64,000 nt of DNA from Pedobacter indicus (lineage in GTDB: Bacteria; Bacteroidota; Bacteroidia; Sphingobacteriales; Sphingobacteriaceae), in contig NZ_QRGB01000001.1 in assembly GCF_003449035.1 (NCBI RefSeq), positions 1,550,001 to 1,614,000 of the forward strand. Reading direction: 5' to 3'. Shown here piece by piece: positions 6,504 through 21,365 of the stretch. A program made the position numbers and the translations under genes. Under the pieces are notes generated by a model that saw only the letters and a list, made by a program, of their open reading frames with translations, searched no databases and was not told where the DNA came from. Position 1 is the first letter of the stretch. Every line of letters starts with the position of its first letter.

Positions 6504-6791
6504 AAATAATGCAAAGTTCGTTAAATATCAATTTGTCCTTTTTGATGATGAATTATTAAAAGAACAGACCCTTTTGAAGATAAATTAACACGCCAATTTT
6601 ATTCATTTTTATCAGATTTCAATTAAAAAGAGGCTGTTATAAATTTAAAAATATTTGAATCTGTTGTAAAATTTGACCAATTTTAGGATAACTATATTAT
6701 AACCCTTTATAATGTCGTTTTTTTAGTTTTATTTGAATTCTTTAATCGACAATATTATATTCTAAAATTTGACCATGAGCGTAAAGAAACC

Positions 6792-7490
6792 ATGCTTATC
6801 GTCTATTTAACTTTTAATCATGGAAAAAAACTAATAACGACTAATAATGCTCAAATAAGTCAAATAACTACTTCTTCAATTGTTGATTTCCTTGATAAAC
6901 TTGGATTACCATCTGATAATATTATTGCTGACGACGCCGAGAGGCGGATTATAAATCAAAATCTGCAAAGCTATTTAGAGACTTTGCCTGAAGAAGTTAA
7001 ACGTGACGCTAGGTAGTTATCTAAATATGCTGTAGACGCAGGGTTGGGATTATTCGATTATGCATTAAATTCGATATGGAACGAGGTTACGATAGCATTG
7101 CGTGGTAAGGCTATAACTTACGGTTTGGACATTCTTTATGACGCAGCAGTGGATGGTAAAATAAGAGATGCTTATTCAACCGAAGACGATTTAGTTGGTT
7201 TAAAGGATATCACTTTATTAGATGCTTGTAAGAAACTAGAATTAATCTCTACAGGAAAGCTCCAACCGAAAAGCGACAGAGAGTAAGCGCAGACTAAAAA
7301 AGATTCTGATGGAAGCTCTGATGGAGACCAATTGGCGAACATACTCTAAAATCAGCTACCGAATGGTTATCTACAAGGCAAATTAAAAGGCCTTGAAATA
7401 CAAGCTTATCTTCGAGAGAATGCCGAAGGTAATCCCTTTTTGGGAGAATACATGACCTTTAGATATTTTCTTAAAACCTCTTGCAGCTTA
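6792..7490 (+). pseudogene. Decayed gene with three in-frame stops, unknown family
   Basis: One reading frame stays protein-like for about 230 codons but is broken by TAG at 7014-7016, TAA at 7284-7286 and TAA at 7347-7349. Translation across the stops gives ETLPEEVKRDAR, then LSKYAVDAGLGLFDYALNS, LYDAAVDGKIRDAYSTEDD and LGEYMTF. The absence of frameshifts suggests point-mutation decay or a recently silenced gene. The upstream 290 bases (6504-6791) are very AT-rich and contain nothing else I can identify. The 5' and 3' limits are uncertain. I do not recognise the family. Confidence 0.55.
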
Positions 7491-7565: not shown

Positions 7566-8102
7566 CTACCTAAAATCAACCAATCTCAAATTGATCAACC
7601 GGTAGGTCATCGCCGAAGAGCTGACTCCAAAATCCTCAGCCATCCTTTTAATGTCTGAATCCTCATAAAAGTCTATCTCGTTTTTCGCTAAATAACCTTT
7701 AATAAGATCGGCTGGCATTAAAAGATTGGCAGCAAAATGATTTGCTTCGCGTTCTAGCTTTTCATCTTTCACGGTATAACCTTCGGAGCTTTTCCGAAAC
7801 AACACCTTGTCCATAAACATATTCCCTTGATCTTTATGAAGAATATAATGCCCCAGTTCATGAGCAATAGTGAATCTTTTGCGGACTTTAGAATGAGCTT
7901 GATTCACTCCAATTGTTGGTTGAGGGTCATTTAAGACTAGGACACCTGAAATATCATCATCAAATGTGTAATTGACTAAATCAATTCCTAAACTTTTAAC
8001 AACACTTTCAATGTTTATAGGCAAGTCAAGATTGCTTTTGTTGCTAAAAACTTCGTTGATAAATGACTTAGTAATACTATCTGCCTTCTGTGAAATAGCC
8101 AT
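7566..8102 (-). CDS. ImmA/IrrE-family zinc metallopeptidase
   Basis: The 178-residue product contains the gluzincin motif HELGHYILH (HExxH) at about residues 83-91 and the downstream EREANHFAANLLMP, the third-ligand region of the ImmA/IrrE family. Such proteases cleave a partner XRE repressor to switch on mobile-element or stress genes. The partner is the gene immediately upstream on the same strand (8136-8468), 33 bases away. The family length is typical and all key residues are present. Regulation of the divergent ubiquitin-like operon by this pair is possible but inferred. Confidence 0.88.
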   Translation of the reverse strand: MAISQKADSITKSFINEVFSNKSNLDLPINIESVVKSLGIDLVNYTFDDDISGVLVLNDPQPTIGVNQAHSKVRKRFTIAHELGHYILHKDQGNMFMDKVLFRKSSEGYTVKDEKLEREANHFAANLLMPADLIKGYLAKNEIDFYEDSDIKRMAEDFGVSSSAMTYRLINLRLVDFR

Positions 8103-8135
8103 ATGTTTTTTTAAACGTTTAAAGTTTATTAGTAA

Positions 8136-8468
8136 TTATTTGTCTCTCCTTAATGCTTGTAAAAAGTTGTTTAAGGATTCTTTTTGAGCATGATCTTCTT
8201 CTTGTATATCTGCGCCTCGAAGGCGTAGGTCGCTAATGTCTATTTTGTTGATCCCCGGTATTAAATCAGATACGCCCACCTTTAAAAAATTTGCTATTAA
8301 GGCGAGTGTTATTATACCGGGTCTTTGACGTCCCTTTTCGATATTTGCAACTGACGATCTAGACAACTTTAGGAATTCAGCCAAAACCTCCTGATTGATG
8401 TTTTTATCATTCCTAATCGAGGCAATCTTAGCTCCTAATTCAATATAAAATTGTTCTTCGCTATTCAT
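8136..8468 (-). CDS. XRE-family helix-turn-helix repressor, partner of ImmA-like protease
   Basis: The start at 8468 is preferred because GGAGGGG lies at the right distance upstream; a longer frame to 8495 has no such site. The product is 110 residues. Its N-terminal half is an HTH_3 domain (IASIRNDKNINQEVLAEFLKLSRSSVANIEKG), and an acidic and polar tail of about 40 residues follows. In ImmR/ImmA-type pairs the repressor is cleaved by the protease encoded next to it. It faces away from the ubiquitin-like operon start at 9100 and could repress in both directions. Confidence 0.88.
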   Translation of the reverse strand: MNSEEQFYIELGAKIASIRNDKNINQEVLAEFLKLSRSSVANIEKGRQRPGIITLALIANFLKVGVSDLIPGINKIDISDLRLRGADIQEEDHAQKESLNNFLQALRRDK

Positions 8469-8691
8469 AAACCCCTCCTTTCTTCGGGAGTGCAAAAGTA
8501 ATAATATATTTTAAATATAAACAATGTATATATAAAAACAAACATATGTTAAAAAAGTTTTAAACACAATATCTTTTTGTAAAATAAAATATGAAATATT
8601 TTATACCCTGATAATAAGGTGTTTAAGTAGTAAATGTTTGTGTTATAAACAATTTTTACTACTTAAAGTTAGTGTGAATACAAAATGGGAA

Positions 8692-8722
8692 GTTGATTAT
8701 TTGGTTTTTTAGACTATCTTTG
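8692..8722 (+). promoter_or_regulatory. Candidate Bacteroidota promoter for the ubiquitin-like operon
   Basis: GTTG at 8692-8695, 19 bases, then TATCTTTG at 8715-8722 closely match the phylum consensus TTTG-N19-TAnnTTTG. Transcription would start near 8729, leaving a leader of about 370 bases before the first gene. A 9-codon open frame begins at 8760 just after AGG and ends at 8786; it could be a leader peptide, but this is weak. Confidence 0.5.
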
Positions 8723-8838
8723 TATGGTTTAGATAATAAACCATATTAAAAAACTTAGGATGAATATAAACAGAGAAAAAAAATAATAAAAAAAACCAGG
8801 CTTATAATAAATCAACCTGGCTTTAATCATTTAAAGGG

Positions 8839-8864
8839 CTAGGCCGTTGCAAGGCCTAGATTTT
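8839..8864 (+). terminator. Hairpin plus T-run in the leader of the ubiquitin-like operon
   Basis: A perfect 7-bp stem CTAGGCC / GGCCTAG with a 7-base loop is followed by ATTTTT. It lies between the candidate promoter and the first gene, so it could end a short RNA (about 130 nt) or act as an attenuator. The remaining leader to 9099 contains no other clear element. Confidence 0.5.
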
Positions 8865-9099
8865 TACTGTGGAAACCAAAAATACTCCCTTTAATTGAAT
8901 TTTCCAAAGCCCTTCTTGATTTATTTAGAATTGTTACAGTTAAAGTAACACTCGTGCCTGAATGTTGAACACTATAAAACATAATGGTCGCAGAGTAAGA
9001 TTCTATACAGTCAGCATAGCTGACGGCTGTTGAAATGATATACACAGCAATCGATTAATTAACAAAAACTAGTTTATGTTTTTTTAAAAAAATAAGGAA

Positions 9100-10410
9100 A
9101 TGAAAAATTTGAAATTAATTATAGAAGACCAGCAATTCGAATGGTCACAGCAATATATTACAGGCTTAGAGGTGAAAGAAAAAGTAGGGGCTCCACCCGA
9201 ATCCGACTTGTTTCTTGCCATCAAAGAACCGTGGGAAGACGAACCTATCTCAAATGAGACAGACGTAAACCTCGCACGCCCTGGAATAGAGAAATTCTTC
9301 TTCAAGAATGCATATTACTTTACCTTGAACGAAGAGAAATACCGTTCATTCAGGACGAAAGTAACAGGAACCGAACTCCTTAATATTGTAGGGATAGTCG
9401 ATACAAGGTGCTATTCCCTGTACCAAAAATTGAAGGGGTGTGACTTCGAGAAAGTTAGCCCAGATGATACCATAAACCTAAGCAATCCCGGTATCGAGCG
9501 GTTCATCACAAAAGATGCTGACACTTTTGTCTACACCGTCGACGGAGAGCATGAAATGACGGACAAAAAACAACTGTCCGCAAATGATATTCTACTAAAG
9601 GCAGATATTGACCCGAACTCACATTACCTTGTCCTTAGAACGACAAATGATGAAATCGATTATGCTTGGAATCCTGACGAATCCATCAAAATGGATTGCA
9701 AAGGAATGGAGTTCGAATCCAGAGTATGGGAAAAATTGATCAATATCGAGGAGTATGGTAAGGTGTGTAGATCCGTACCTCCTGCTCGAAGCTACCAAAT
9801 CAAAATCGACAAGCAATATCACATCATACATGGTCGGTACATCTCCCAAGAAAAACTTATCGAGTTGGGCGGTAAACCAAACGTAAAGTATGATGTGTAC
9901 AAGTTCCTAAGCAAAAATCCAAAACCAGTGAAAATAGCTATAGGGGAAAAGGTCGATTTATTAGAGCTGTGCCTAGTCAGGTTCGTGCTACAACCGAAGG
10001 AGCAAACCGAAGGCATGGGTGTGCGTAAACAGTTCCTCCTGCCGGCTGAAGATGTGGAAACATTGAAAAAAATGGGCCTTGAATGGGAGACAATCACCTT
10101 GGGAGCTCATTGGGTAATCATTTACGATTACCCAATCCCTGAGGGGTACAACATCCGTAAAGCTGATGTAGCATTGATGATCCCTCCGACCTATCCCGCT
10201 ACACAGATTGACATGGCTTATTTCTACCCTGCATTATCCAAATCGAACAACAGGCGGATAGGAGCTATAACAAATCAGGGGATAGATGGTAGGACGTTCC
10301 AAAGGTGGTCCCGGCACAGACAAGCAGGTCAATGGACTCCTGGTGTCGATTGTATTGCAACGCACCTTTGCCTAGTCGATAACTGGTTAATCAACGATTT
10401 AAAAAAGTAG
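9100..10410 (+). CDS. Four multiubiquitin domains fused to a prokaryotic E2 (family E)
   Basis: This 436-residue protein reads as four beta-grasp multiubiquitin repeats (about residues 3-68, 70-138, 141-213 and 230-300) and a C-terminal E2-like domain (about 305-436). Repeats 1 and 2 end alike with PGIEKF (61-66) and PGIERF (130-135); repeat 3 is weaker (KGMEFE). The E2 part has the landmark PPTYPATQIDMAYFYP, a WSRH block (403-406) and WTPGVDCIATHL, matching Prok-E2_E. Cys418 in that last block is the candidate acceptor residue; Cys424 is close by. These families co-occur with E1 and JAB proteins in bacterial ubiquitin-like operons, and the E1/JAB gene follows after 8 bases. There is no free diglycine C-terminus because E2 is fused behind the repeats. 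Roles in phage defence are inferred from related systems. Confidence 0.85.
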   Translation: MKNLKLIIEDQQFEWSQQYITGLEVKEKVGAPPESDLFLAIKEPWEDEPISNETDVNLARPGIEKFFFKNAYYFTLNEEKYRSFRTKVTGTELLNIVGIVDTRCYSLYQKLKGCDFEKVSPDDTINLSNPGIERFITKDADTFVYTVDGEHEMTDKKQLSANDILLKADIDPNSHYLVLRTTNDEIDYAWNPDESIKMDCKGMEFESRVWEKLINIEEYGKVCRSVPPARSYQIKIDKQYHIIHGRYISQEKLIELGGKPNVKYDVYKFLSKNPKPVKIAIGEKVDLLELCLVRFVLQPKEQTEGMGVRKQFLLPAEDVETLKKMGLEWETITLGAHWVIIYDYPIPEGYNIRKADVALMIPPTYPATQIDMAYFYPALSKSNNRRIGAITNQGIDGRTFQRWSRHRQAGQWTPGVDCIATHLCLVDNWLINDLKK

Positions 10411-10418
10411 ACTTCGTT

Positions 10419-11789
10419 ATGAATAGAATAAAAATATCCGGCAGTCACTATGAACAGCTCAAATCCCACTTGTTCCCGGGAGATGGTTTAGAAGCGGTGG
10501 CTATTGCAATCTGTGGCAGGTCTATCCACGGCAATAACCATACGCTATTGGTACAAGACATTGTTCCTGTACCGTACGATGTATGTTTCGAAAGACGTGG
10601 GGATATCGTGCATTGGCCTACAGATTTTATAAATCCGCTTATTGAAAAAGCCGCGGATCAATCTCTCGCTATCATCAAAATGCACTGCCATCCGGTGCAT
10701 TTTGAACAGTTTTCCGTACTGGATGACGAATCAGATCACACATTGTTTACGAGCATCCACGCTTGGCTTGATGACGATATGCCACATGCAAGCTGTATTA
10801 TGTTGCCCGATGGGCGACTCTTTGGAAGATTCTTCTTCAACGACATGTCCACAGACGTTGCACATGAGATAACCGTTGCCGGAAGCGATATTATCAAATG
10901 GAATTATGACATAGGTAATTCCTTTATTGAGCATGGTGCTCAAACGCGTAACTTACAGGCCTTTGGTAAAGGCACTACAGCATTACTCAACAACCTTAAA
11001 ATAGGTGTAGTAGGATGCTCTGGAACAGGGAGCCCGACCATCGAGATGCTTACTAGGCTAGGGGTCGGAACATTAGTCTTAGTAGATCCTGACCATATCG
11101 ACACCGTGAACCTCAATAGAATCACCGGCTCTACCAAACAAGACGCTGTCCAAAAAATGGCAAAAGTGCAAGTAATGCAACGTACAATTGATAGCATTGG
11201 AATAGGCACACGTACCATTGTTTTCCAAAGCAACATTGTCAATGTTGATGTAGTAAAAGAACTTGCCGATTGCGATATTCTTTTTGGATGTGTGGACAGT
11301 ATCGAAGGAAGACATTTCCTTAACTTAATCTCGTCATACTACCTTGTTCCACTATTTGATTTAGGGGTAAGGTTTGACGCTGACGGCAAGGGGGGGATCG
11401 ACTCCATCAATGGCACGGTACATTATGTGCAGCCTCATGGCTCTAGCTTATTGAGTCGAGAAGTATATGATCCGGAGCGCTTACGGGCTGAAAGTATCCT
11501 AAGGGTTGATCCTGAGGAATACGAGAGGAACGGGTATCTAGCTAAGGCCGGAGAATCCAACCCTGCTGTTATCAGTGTCAACACACAGATAGCAGCAACG
11601 GCTATTAATGAGTTGTTAGCAAGGATACATCCCTATAGAAACGACCCCAACTCAGAGTCTGAAACGGTACGAATCGGTATCTCAAATGGAGTGTCTTACA
11701 TGGAGGAAACGACTGATACATGCGGCTATTTCTGTAAACAAACAGGCAAAGGGGACACCGTGCCCTTGTTGGGATCAATATCATTGTAA
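10419..11789 (+). CDS. JAB deubiquitinase-like domain fused to E1-like activating enzyme
   Basis: The 456-residue product has an N-terminal JAB/JAMM zinc isopeptidase domain with Glu25 and the motif H89-x-H91-x7-Ser99-x2-Asp102 complete. A ThiF/E1 adenylation domain starts near residue 190 with GVVGCSGTGS (nucleotide-binding loop, 196-205), LVDPDHIDTVNLNR (221-234) and GCVDSIEGR (290-298). The domain would adenylate the ubiquitin-like C-terminus, while the JAB would remove or process it. At residues 341-349 it reads GSSLLSREV where many relatives have a CLxC pair, so the usual cysteines seem to be serines (343 and 346). A later Cys435/Cys439 pair near the C-terminus could act instead. It is sandwiched between the Ubl-E2 and DUF6527 genes. 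Confidence 0.87.
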   Translation: MNRIKISGSHYEQLKSHLFPGDGLEAVAIAICGRSIHGNNHTLLVQDIVPVPYDVCFERRGDIVHWPTDFINPLIEKAADQSLAIIKMHCHPVHFEQFSVLDDESDHTLFTSIHAWLDDDMPHASCIMLPDGRLFGRFFFNDMSTDVAHEITVAGSDIIKWNYDIGNSFIEHGAQTRNLQAFGKGTTALLNNLKIGVVGCSGTGSPTIEMLTRLGVGTLVLVDPDHIDTVNLNRITGSTKQDAVQKMAKVQVMQRTIDSIGIGTRTIVFQSNIVNVDVVKELADCDILFGCVDSIEGRHFLNLISSYYLVPLFDLGVRFDADGKGGIDSINGTVHYVQPHGSSLLSREVYDPERLRAESILRVDPEEYERNGYLAKAGESNPAVISVNTQIAATAINELLARIHPYRNDPNSESETVRIGISNGVSYMEETTDTCGYFCKQTGKGDTVPLLGSISL

Positions 11790-12115
11790 TGTTAAAGAAG
11801 CTGTTTAACTGGTTTATAAGGCTTTTCAATACCGAGAAGCCCTATAAATATAAGTTTGTCGAGGACACACCGATCACACTTGCCACAAAGGCAGTATACA
11901 TAATAGGGCAAGAAGGCTTTTATTGGCAATTGGTCATGCTGTGCCCTTGCGGATGCAAGAATATATTGCACATGAACTTGATGGAAGAAGAATCCCCCTG
12001 CTGGTCATATTCAATCAACAAAAAAAATATCATAACTATCCGCCCATCTGTAAATCGCATAGTGGGATGTAAAAGTCACTTTTTTGTTCGAGAGGGTAAG
12101 GTTGTATGGGCATAA
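11789..12115 (+). CDS. DUF6527-like zinc-binding protein of the ubiquitin-like operon
   Basis: This 108-residue protein starts inside the stop of the E1 gene (TAATG overlap), so it is translationally coupled. It carries CPCGC at residues 52-56, Cys71, and GCKSHFF at 93-99 with Cys94 and His97. Together these make a plausible zinc site, and the IRPSVNRIVGCKSHFFVREGKV pattern fits DUF6527, a family I know from bacterial operons with E1/E2/JAB genes. Its job is not established; a substrate adaptor or E3-like factor is possible but speculative. Confidence 0.78.
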   Translation: MLKKLFNWFIRLFNTEKPYKYKFVEDTPITLATKAVYIIGQEGFYWQLVMLCPCGCKNILHMNLMEEESPCWSYSINKKNIITIRPSVNRIVGCKSHFFVREGKVVWA

Positions 12116-12142
12116 ATTAAAAAAGGAAAGGAGGTATATATA

Positions 12143-12274
12143 ATGGCAAAAGATGCAGAAGGGCGTAAGTTCAACAGAATCCCGGAGCACACCAAAGTTG
12201 TGAACGGAAAGAAAATCACTGTTGCTCCTCATATTCGGAGCAATCGTTCTGATTCTAAAGGAAGCAAAAAGTAG
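12143..12274 (+). CDS. 43-residue basic protein at the end of the ubiquitin-like operon
   Basis: An ATG at 12143 follows a strong ribosome site (GGAAAGGAGG, 8 bases spacing). The product is 43 residues, very basic (about 12 Lys/Arg), with RIPEHTKVVNGKKITVAPHI followed by a Ser/Lys tail. It is separated by 27 bases from the DUF6527 gene and is directly followed by the operon terminator. Small proteins with an IPxHTxxVNGK core occur widely, but I know no function for them. A lysine-rich substrate, an inhibitor or a DNA-binding accessory are all possible. Confidence 0.7.
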   Translation: MAKDAEGRKFNRIPEHTKVVNGKKITVAPHIRSNRSDSKGSKK

Positions 12275-12303
12275 TAATAAAATTCTATTTTTTAGGCAAT
12301 GGA

Positions 12304-12336
12304 GGAGATGGCAAACAATTGTCGTCTCCTTTTTTT
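12304..12336 (+). terminator. Intrinsic terminator of the ubiquitin-like operon
   Basis: The stem GGAGATGGCAA pairs with TTGTCGTCTCC (11 bp including two G-T wobbles), followed by seven T. It lies 30 bases after the stop of the 43-residue gene. Confidence 0.85.
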
Positions 12337-12337
12337 A

Positions 12338-12709
12338 TAATAGTGAATTTTTCTATTGTCCAGCCGATTCAAATCTTTTATAAAAAAAATAAAAATATTC
12401 CTTTTTCGACTACAGGAAAGACTATCATACTCAACCATTTAAGTGCCTTATTATCAGAAAGAGCCGTAACTCCAGTTTTTTGCTTTTCCCTAAGCTAATT
12501 ATGTAACGCGAGGGAATAGATGAATTTTCGAACTCGATCGGTTAATAAGCAATAAAAAAAGAGGCACATTAGATATTGAGTTGGATTTTGCCTTTTTTTC
12601 ATTTTGATAGAACGCATTCTCAGAAAATCTAATCTTATTGATGAAGATCTTTAGCTAGTTGTTAGTATGTTAAAAACAGATTTATCCTCCCTTCGAGGAA
12701 AGCCTCAAA
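12338..12709. other. AT-rich intergenic stretch without a recognised gene
   Basis: No credible coding region or RNA gene was seen. A weak inverted pair (AAAAAAGAGGCA near 12556 and TGCCTTTTTTT near 12590) may be a poor terminator or the trace of an element end. Confidence 0.4.
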
Positions 12710-16573: not shown

Positions 16574-16763
16574 ATTGTCGTTACCTATCTTTGGGTCCCA
16601 GAAAGTGGGTTAAAAATCTGTAAGTCAGTTAATTGTTATCGTTTGTTTTGGTGCTCTTTGTAGCCATTTGGTACCCTGTTCTGGTTTTTTTCTGGGACCC
16701 ATTGGTCCCAAATGTTCATAAATGAACCCAAATCATGGACATGCAACCTTTAAAATAGTTGAT

Positions 16764-20984: not shown

Positions 20985-21365
20985 ATGAAAGAACCGTTAA
21001 AGGAAAAAGAGATCTTTACCCAAAAGCGTAAACCTGGACGACCGAGAAAAGCCATTACCCGAAGCGGATCGCTGGTCGTTCGGATGACCCCGACCGAGCG
21101 ATTGGCAATTGTAAGCAAAGCTAATGATGCTGGAATGCCGATGAGCGAATGGTTTCGCTGTGCCGCCAAAGTTGCTGTGATAAGACAGAGGCTTTCAAAA
21201 GAGGAAACTAAACACCTACGGACTCTGTCCGGTATGGCCAATAACCTCAACCAATTGACCAAACTGGCACACACGAACGGACTTGTATCGCTGATGGCGG
21301 ATCTGCGCAGGTTATTGACGACGGTGGAAGAACTTATGGAAAGGATCGGAAGGGATGATCGCTAA
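20985..21365 (+). CDS. mobC: MobC-like relaxosome accessory protein
   Basis: The 126-residue basic protein has a Lys/Arg-rich N-terminus (KRKPGRPRKAI), then RMTPTERLAIVSKANDAGMPMSEWFRCAA, a ribbon-helix-helix-like segment, and GMANNLNQLTKLAHTNGL, the MobC-family signature. It binds oriT and helps the relaxase. A strong ribosome site (GGAGGGGGG) precedes the ATG. It overlaps the relaxase gene by 11 bases, as expected for a mob operon. Confidence 0.88.
   Translation: MKEPLKEKEIFTQKRKPGRPRKAITRSGSLVVRMTPTERLAIVSKANDAGMPMSEWFRCAAKVAVIRQRLSKEETKHLRTLSGMANNLNQLTKLAHTNGLVSLMADLRRLLTTVEELMERIGRDDR

Follow-up and report, generated by a model that had tools for sequence, protein, structure and literature searches.

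A Bub-type ubiquitin-like conjugation operon on a mobile element of Pedobacter indicus, with a 43-residue basic protein that would belong to a regulatory chassis found at other antiviral operons

The window analyzed in this work is a stretch of 64,000 nucleotides of Pedobacter indicus (contig NZ_QRGB01000001.1, positions 1,550,001 to 1,614,000 of the forward strand), and our subject is an operon of four same-strand open reading frames (ORFs) that stand in line at 9100-12274, with intergenic gaps of 8, -1 and 27 nt. The first gene (9100..10410, +) encodes a BubAB-type fusion of 436 aa in which four ubiquitin-like (Ubl) domains are joined to an E2, and the second (10419..11789, +) a BubCD-type fusion of 456 aa with a JAB/JAMM metalloprotease domain N-terminal to an E1 adenylation domain. 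They are followed by a gene for a DUF6527 protein of 108 aa, putatively zinc-binding (11789..12115, +), and by a gene for a basic microprotein of 43 aa that is common to other antiviral operons (12143..12274, +). A preliminary description of this DNA had proposed the same four products, and the ORFs, Pfam and AlphaFold2 bear it out. It had also placed one candidate promoter and one terminator. The terminator is credible, a 14-pair stem followed by a T run at 12301..12332 (+), while the promoter did not stand out, since a sigma-70 consensus scan of 8400-12700 returned 13 sites against 12.9 in shuffled sequences, with a consensus that may not be that of the host. Bacteroidota promoters deviate from the sigma-70-type consensus. 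The location on an integrative and conjugative element (ICE), also proposed earlier, is supported by genes for CTnDOT-type TraJ, TraM and DUF4138 on the left of the operon and by integrases at 16722 and 29717 and a relaxase at 21355 on the right. This genome contains a single Multi_ubiq locus and gives zero matches to the SMODS (CD-NTase) profile.

Profile searches and structure prediction, the checks that the preliminary description had put forward, were both run; the Multi_ubiq, Prok-E2_E, ThiF and DUF6527 profiles all matched, and JAB stayed below the Pfam cut-off. Four stretches of the 436-aa protein match Multi_ubiq at E<=1 (E=1.5e-26 overall), and only the first two pass E<=0.001 individually, so domains 3 and 4 are called from weaker scores plus the model. 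The domains span about aa 3-69 (9106..9306, +), 71-139 (9310..9516, +), 142-209 (9523..9726, +) and 229-305 (9784..10014, +), strands and a helix being visible in the model of the first. The AlphaFold2 model (predicted local distance difference test, pLDDT, 89; predicted TM score, pTM, 0.54) shows four units of beta-grasp-like shape followed by one of E2 type, in line with the earlier assignment of four multiubiquitin repeats joined to an E2, and the pTM leaves the mutual placement of the domains uncertain. Foldseek superimposes the Ubl part onto the multi-ubiquitin structure 9cd2 (E=9e-14). The E2 domain (10033..10407, +; Prok-E2_E, 2.7e-34) is superimposed onto BubB (9eae_C) with a TMt of 0.92 and a root-mean-square deviation of 1.1, and matches solved BubB by sequence at 1.5e-24.

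The fourth Ubl domain ends at Gly305, the predicted mature C terminus. This residue of the Ubl4/E2 junction is invariant in 18/18 fusions aligned and lies in the sole stretch of the model with a pLDDT under 50 (302-307). In the deposited Citrobacter structures, the BubA chains have the corresponding Gly as their last residue, and the residue that follows it is the first of one BubB chain. Among six relatives with a separate Ubl ORF, five terminate in Gly and the sixth (L018) has a TEG motif four residues from its end. We infer that the JAMM domain would cut BubAB at the Gly305/E2 boundary. The codon following that of Gly305 is ATG (window 10012-10017), so an internal E2 start would be possible in principle; a Met right after the equivalent Gly occurs in L022 only among the other 17 fusions. 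At L018:1098-1887, Ubl and E2 are encoded in different, overlapping frames, and the Ubl reads TEG, four residues, stop.

In the E2, W403, S404, R405 and H406 are invariant among the 18 fusions and no Cys is invariant in these 18 aligned sequences, which makes Ser404 the most likely Ubl acceptor. Cys418 (VDCIATHL) was considered as the nucleophile and rejected because relatives have C, N, S or D there. Work by Ye et al. in 2026 reportedly deals with oxyester chemistry on Ser, and served us as a lead only, not as a test. The polyUbl-E2 protein could instead be a structural scaffold, with a dead RWD-like E2 and Ubl filaments but no conjugation. In the part of their survey that treats type 6e, Iyer et al. 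(2006) deemed the E2-like domain inactive, its Cys being missing, and the solved multi-Ub relatives include filaments (9d59 and 9d5b, by title). However, S404, H406, G305, the JAMM residues and the nucleotide-site residues of the E1 are invariant or nearly so in the alignments and would be unneeded in a scaffold, which we therefore regard as very unlikely.

The 456-aa protein matches ThiF at E=3.3e-27. Its JAB domain lies under the Pfam cut-off (15.2 of 25 bits; Prok-JAB, 0.019), and we nevertheless take it to be real because the JAMM residues are conserved in 24 sequences and because the whole protein matches solved Citrobacter BubCD over its full length (6e-72). E25, H89 and H91 are invariant in these sequences, S99 and D102 are nearly invariant, and D102 is aligned to the Asp that the BubCD depositors mutated (D104A), in agreement with the complete JAB motif joined to an E1 fold announced by the preliminary description. 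The CxxC region of the E1 was examined for a Cys-to-Ser nucleophile switch, an idea that was dropped; the CxxC pairs of L023, L025, L026 and L044 look like zinc sites, presumably of the ThiF/MoeB kind. The third protein had been called Cys-rich and DUF6527-like, and it matches Pfam DUF6527 at 1.8e-20. It contains a zinc-type pattern, C52-x3-C56-x37-C94-x2-H97, in which C52, C56, C94 and H97, together with C54, are invariant in 15 sequences. This pattern is close to the C-x3-C-x(35-38)-H-x2-C signature given in the part of Iyer et al. (2006) consulted, the last two residues being C,H here and not H,C. Its model has a pLDDT of 87, without a Foldseek match at E<=0.001, and VIA-align gave Z <=2.9.

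A scan of genome contigs for relatives of the operon yielded 12 loci, and tblastn of plasmids yielded 101 records of which three were opened; a DUF6527 gene is next in 12/12 and 3/3 of these loci, respectively. Prok-E2_E was found in 9/395 Bacteroidota genomes sampled. Row 6e of Table 1 of Iyer et al. (2006) lists polyUbl (fused to E2/RWD-like in some species), JAB-E1 and a metal-binding protein, and the window shares all four components with it, including the polyUbl-E2 fusion. Like type 6e and Bub operons, it has a Multi_ubiq polyUbl, an E2/RWD-like domain that lacks the canonical Cys and a JAB domain N-terminal to the E1. It differs from type 6e, as far as the consulted parts of that survey go, by its four Ubl domains where one to three were reported, by its Bacteroidota host, a phylum not among the lineages named there for 6e, and by its small protein, of which section 14 makes no mention. 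Citrobacter Bub (PDB 9ea4, 9ea5, 9ea8, 9eae and 9eav) has in common with the window the full-length JAB-E1, the E2 fold, W-S-R-H, the Gly at the BubA/BubB boundary and the multi-Ub repeats, whereas the four Ubl domains, the Bacteroidota host, a helix-turn-helix (HTH)+M78 switch and the extra 43-aa gene distinguish the window. The suggestion of a self-contained modification system of the reported Bub type thus stands, whereas the two-fusion layout, which had been presented as a possible variant, is that of type 6e. Annotated operons of one Synechocystis plasmid and one Salmonella IncHI2 plasmid have their three genes in this order too. The core is of a known kind, with four Ubls, and the variant character of the whole comes from its chassis. 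Type II CBASS (cyclic oligonucleotide-based antiphage signaling system) has an E2-E1 fusion, Cap2, together with a CD-NTase, whereas in the window the E2 is joined to Ubls and the E1 to JAB; the PADLOC E1-E2 models cover only part of the window E1 (best 3.3e-12). As for Bil, the Ubl part alone was compared, and the BilA-labelled structure 8u38 was matched at 0.13 by sequence and 1e-8 by Foldseek.

Two genes diverge from the operon and would form its switch. One (7566..8102, -) encodes an M78 (ImmA/IrrE-type) metallopeptidase, the CapP-like half, with Pfam Peptidase_M78 at 5.7e-23, an HELGH motif and, as best solved match, 7t5t ('CapP toxin', 3.8e-7). The other (8136..8495, -) encodes an XRE HTH repressor, the CapH-like half (Pfam HTH_3, 1.3e-11), with 11 generic solved matches of which the last and weakest is 7t5u (0.0098), a structure that we take to be CapH. 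The HTH+M78 pair is divergent from the operon in 5/12 genome-contig relatives (L003-L007) and in L052, and L008 has an M78 match without an HTH partner. As with CapH+CapP, an HTH gene and an M78 protease gene here diverge from an operon of immune type; the sequence match is modest, and the ssDNA (single-stranded DNA) activation described for CapH+CapP would apply to the window by analogy. According to the sections of PMC13373217 available to us, CapH+CapP is a ssDNA-responsive switch, and 219/544 Bub operons carry CapW or CapH+CapP.

The 43-aa protein, which the preliminary description had named without comment, is what is new at this locus and proved its most informative part. It has 12 Lys/Arg and 4 Asp/Glu, a basic composition that would suit a nucleic acid or an acidic partner, and it matches no Pfam family better than E=0.05. 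No NCBIfam or PADLOC family was found for the window copy at E<=1, and this copy has no match either in PHROGs, against which 10/13 copies were scanned; other copies gave weak matches to phrog_21154 (5/10, best 0.012) and phrog_34767 (one, 0.0057), and five PHROGs families are listed for the copies, all but one without description. We did not meet the protein in the published literature, on a limited search. Searches covered sampled Bacteroidota genomes and, beyond this phylum, collections of plasmids, phages and viruses as well as E. coli DNA. Matches occur in 3/395 genomes of the phylum, in 6/299 of the family of genome G088 and, with a profile, in 5/300 of the order, and merging of overlaps leaves 10 genomes which, with one Chryseobacterium plasmid, make 11 Bacteroidota copies. 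One further row (G752/L054, E=8.9e-4) was rejected, being partial (3-26 of 42) with no microprotein-like ORF seen and a helicase-like gene nearby, and a partial match in Synechocystis PCC 7339 (57.6% over 33 aa) was left out of the counts. In viral contigs, 67 pattern matches were obtained and none confirmed; the phage search gave one weak partial match (E=0.3), present in two records of a single phage, and E. coli genomes searched with the DNA of the Enterobacter copy yielded no match. On small enterobacterial plasmids, the microprotein follows a HicB-type gene (14 Serratia and 2 Enterobacter records, one each opened); the homologues on these plasmids of 3.7-4.5 kb are unannotated 43-aa ORFs (L031:1204-1335 and L032:3707-3838).

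In ten microprotein sequences aligned, 16/43 positions are invariant, and 11 pairs chosen among 13 copies, one pair being enterobacterial, gave 0.03-0.23 nonsynonymous (pN) against 0.56-0.95 synonymous (pS) differences per site. With pN far below pS, the microprotein is under selection as a protein. AGGAGG-type ribosome-binding sites, on which Bacteroidota seldom depend, precede 7/13 copies compared. A near-perfect AAAGGAGGT site stands before the window gene at 12127-12135, and four other Bacteroidota copies have the like. A role as translated leader peptide was rejected because no gene of the operon follows the microprotein in the window, L051 or L052.

For 10/11 Bacteroidota copies, the microprotein is on the same strand as an adjoining operon of antiviral or candidate antiviral genes, namely four CBASS, one Pycsar (pyrimidine cyclase system for antiphage resistance), three Ubl operons, one PifA-like gene and one PADLOC candidate. 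Besides the Bub operon of the window, the Ubl operons are L052, a multi-Ub/DUF6791-ThiF/DUF6527 operon in which the microprotein again comes last, and L044, which has a 77-aa Ubl-sized first gene, assigned by size alone, then an E2 just under the Pfam cut-off and a JAB-E1 (E1 by PADLOC, JAB by alignment). The CBASS operons are L034 (Cap15, CD-NTase, E1-E2 and JAB), L035 (CD-NTase, E2 and patatin), L042 (a Sa_NUDIX effector and CD-NTase, from which an E2 is separated by other ORFs and by a transposase-like insertion) and L051 (patatin, CD-NTase and E2, the microprotein last). L030, on the Chryseobacterium plasmid, is a Pycsar operon that includes an E2. Of these CBASS and Pycsar loci, all but L051 have the microprotein as their first gene. 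In L045, a PifA-like KAP NTPase is the second gene after the microprotein; L043 has the PADLOC candidate PDC-M36A (3.8e-19), and in L053, the eleventh copy, a SocA/MqsA-like gene is divergent from the microprotein. The third gene of the L030 operon (6746-7399) encodes an E2-like SEC-C protein (PADLOC E2, 1.4e-51), and we know of no earlier case of Pycsar paired with ubiquitin-like machinery.

A gene with the HExGH motif of M78 type is present in the divergent regulator set of 9/11 fetched regions (by motif; Pfam was applied to the window gene only), the identities of regulators outside the window being largely based on motif, homology and position. A trio made of a sigma-like gene, a 114-aa gene and an M78 gene adjoins the CBASS, Pycsar and PifA-like operons; it is divergent in L034, L035, L042, L051, L045 and L030, with products of ~225 aa, ~114 aa and ~262 aa, respectively. 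The sigma-like and 114-aa proteins of L034 match no Pfam family at E<=0.01. The CBASS and Pycsar operons L034, L035, L042, L051 and L030 thus have in common with the window a 41-43-aa protein and an M78 regulator, and differ from it in core chemistry and in that the window has its microprotein last.

DNA comparisons show where these parts join. The first 20 kb of the window were compared by blastn (E<=1e-3) with 13 kb of L052, of the same family, and two matches were obtained: 7569-9114 (72.5%), which covers both regulator genes, M78 and HTH, with the intergenic DNA as far as the start of bubA, and 12115-12275 (84%), from the end of the DUF6527 gene to the end of the 43-aa gene. Zero matches were found between or outside them. 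At the protein level, identity is 68% for M78, 76% for HTH and 39/43 residues for the microprotein, versus 24-37% for the core proteins. Between the window and L003, homology extends over the core and over portions of the two regulator genes, M78 and HTH, but no match covers the microprotein. Among ten other pairs, three (L034/L042, L035/L042 and L030/L045) have homology that runs through the regulator and the microprotein and ends 3-6 bp past the stop codon. For L034/L045 it ends 4 bp inside the microprotein gene; for L034/L035 the block extends ~220 bp further and ends before the CBASS core, the ICE genes matching again beyond. The remaining five pairs have shorter or broken matches, microprotein included. 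These breaks point to a constant unit of regulator, promoter and microprotein and to a variable unit, the antiviral core, and the Bub core of the window appears to sit in a regulatory chassis common to other antiviral cores.

This chassis would consist of a divergent repressor or sigma-like gene, the M78 protease gene, the promoter region and the microprotein, with Bub as one exchangeable core. We give about even chances to the broader proposal that the 41-43-residue basic protein is a working part of a portable chassis driving CBASS, Pycsar, Bub, other Ubl and PifA-like cores, which would be exchanged between or beside the constant parts. Since the microprotein is kept when the core is CBASS, Pycsar or a PifA-like gene, it would be a part of the chassis and not of the Ubl chemistry, most likely with a role in control or as a general co-factor. 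It might conversely be a partner specific to E2/Ubl enzymes, such as a dedicated conjugation acceptor, as the operon that adjoins the microprotein has a Ubl, an E1 or an E2 among its components for 8/11 copies (Pycsar-with-E2 included), and 4/4 CBASS neighbours have an E2 or E1-E2 versus 20/48 CD-NTase regions in a cruder search. However, the adjacent genes that were scanned in L043, L045 and L053 (3/11) include no Ubl/E1/E2 gene, none is annotated on the enterobacterial HicB-type plasmids, and DNA homology links the microprotein to the regulator and not to the core, so we find such a partnership unlikely.

CD-NTase genes were used as a yardstick for these neighbourhoods. In 395 genomes the SMODS profile gave 54 rows, among which two fragmented genes appear twice. 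The chance of 4/11 CD-NTase neighbours would be ~1e-13, a rough value that assumes genomes of ~3,800 genes and four neighbouring slots for each CD-NTase, and that overstates the case because the copies are not independent, the chassis of L034, L035 and L042 being homologous. The reverse control consisted of 48 regions around CD-NTase matches; some of them are truncated where a contig stops, and two overlap. The microprotein was present in 2/48, both already known, and the sigma-like/114-aa/M78 triad in 4/48, both microprotein regions included (chance ~0.005), whereas an E2 or Cap2, by simple phmmer, was found in at least 20/48, one gene being counted in both overlapping regions. By these counts the microprotein is tied more tightly to the regulator triad than to E2, although the small numbers and the two regions known beforehand make this a weak test.

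The microprotein could also be a passive hitchhiker or a recombination handle at the edge of a cargo site. It stands at either end of operons, on mobile elements, and is absent from 15/15 Bub relatives and 46/48 CD-NTase regions. On the other hand, pN well under pS, the strand shared with the neighbouring operon in 10/11 copies and the AGGAGG-type sites argue for a protein that is made and used, and we hold this alternative for improbable.

Taken together, we favour, with a probability of roughly 80%, a Bub-type (Iyer type 6e) conjugation operon on a CTnDOT-type ICE, set within a regulatory chassis. The domain identities, invariant residues and homology breaks are read from sequences and predicted structures, and the following steps are proposed on top of them. 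The HTH repressor and the M78 protease, both encoded divergently, would silence the operon and release it on a stress signal, which could be ssDNA by analogy with CapH+CapP. The JAMM protease would cleave BubAB after Gly305 and so release the E2 from a (Ubl)4 chain that ends in Gly; the E1 domain would adenylate Gly305 and hand the Ubl to the E2, most probably on Ser404. Targets would then receive the Ubl, the DUF6527 zinc protein being a putative adaptor or E3-like factor in this step, and the JAMM protease might also take the Ubl off again, while the 43-aa protein would probably serve in control or as a co-factor.

Several observations weigh against this interpretation, in addition to the verdict of inactivity on the type 6e E2 given above. 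The likeness of the M78 and HTH proteins to CapP and CapH is modest (3.8e-7 and 0.0098), M78 being a broad family, and no M78-type HExGH gene is present in the fetched regions of L044 and L053 (2/11). The Ubl-sized proteins of L044 and L052 lack a terminal Gly, which limits the terminal-Gly rule to BubAB-type relatives and does not extend it to every Ubl operon. The microprotein was absent from 15/15 BubAB/BubCD-type loci (L003-L017; phmmer --max, chance-level E >=1.7) and from 2/4 CD-NTase regions with the triad, and is therefore not essential to Bub or to the triad.

The preliminary description had linked the operon to phage defence. An operon dedicated to phage defence by conjugation, in the manner of Bil or type II CBASS, would fit the mobile setting, the stress-type switch and the presence of the chassis microprotein at CBASS and Pycsar operons, but a paper of 2026 (PMC13373217) states that protection against phage had yet to be demonstrated for Bub operons, and we rate this function slightly below even odds. 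With its four Ubls, predicted self-processing site and clear E2 nucleophile candidate, this compact Bacteroidota Bub operon is suited to tests of oxyester-type conjugation. If several unrelated antiviral cores are served by the same tiny protein and the same kind of protease switch, the control of bacterial immunity would be modular. The microprotein would in that case help to find defence operons not yet described, and regulation, or attack by phages, could converge on it.

Finally, the intergenic region upstream of the operon contains a conserved block (8790..9060, -; 86% identity to L052) that may be a structured RNA ending in a terminator-like hairpin. Its predicted fold has z=-3.95 on the minus strand and z=-3.30 on the plus strand, and double-sided changes affect 12/51 predicted pairs in three sequences, which is weak covariation. 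An Rfam scan of the block returned sub-threshold matches only, with no family at cut-off. A conserved gene at 8839-9045 (-) was considered and discarded because its reading frame is broken in L052, and the block is possibly a small RNA or a decayed gene.

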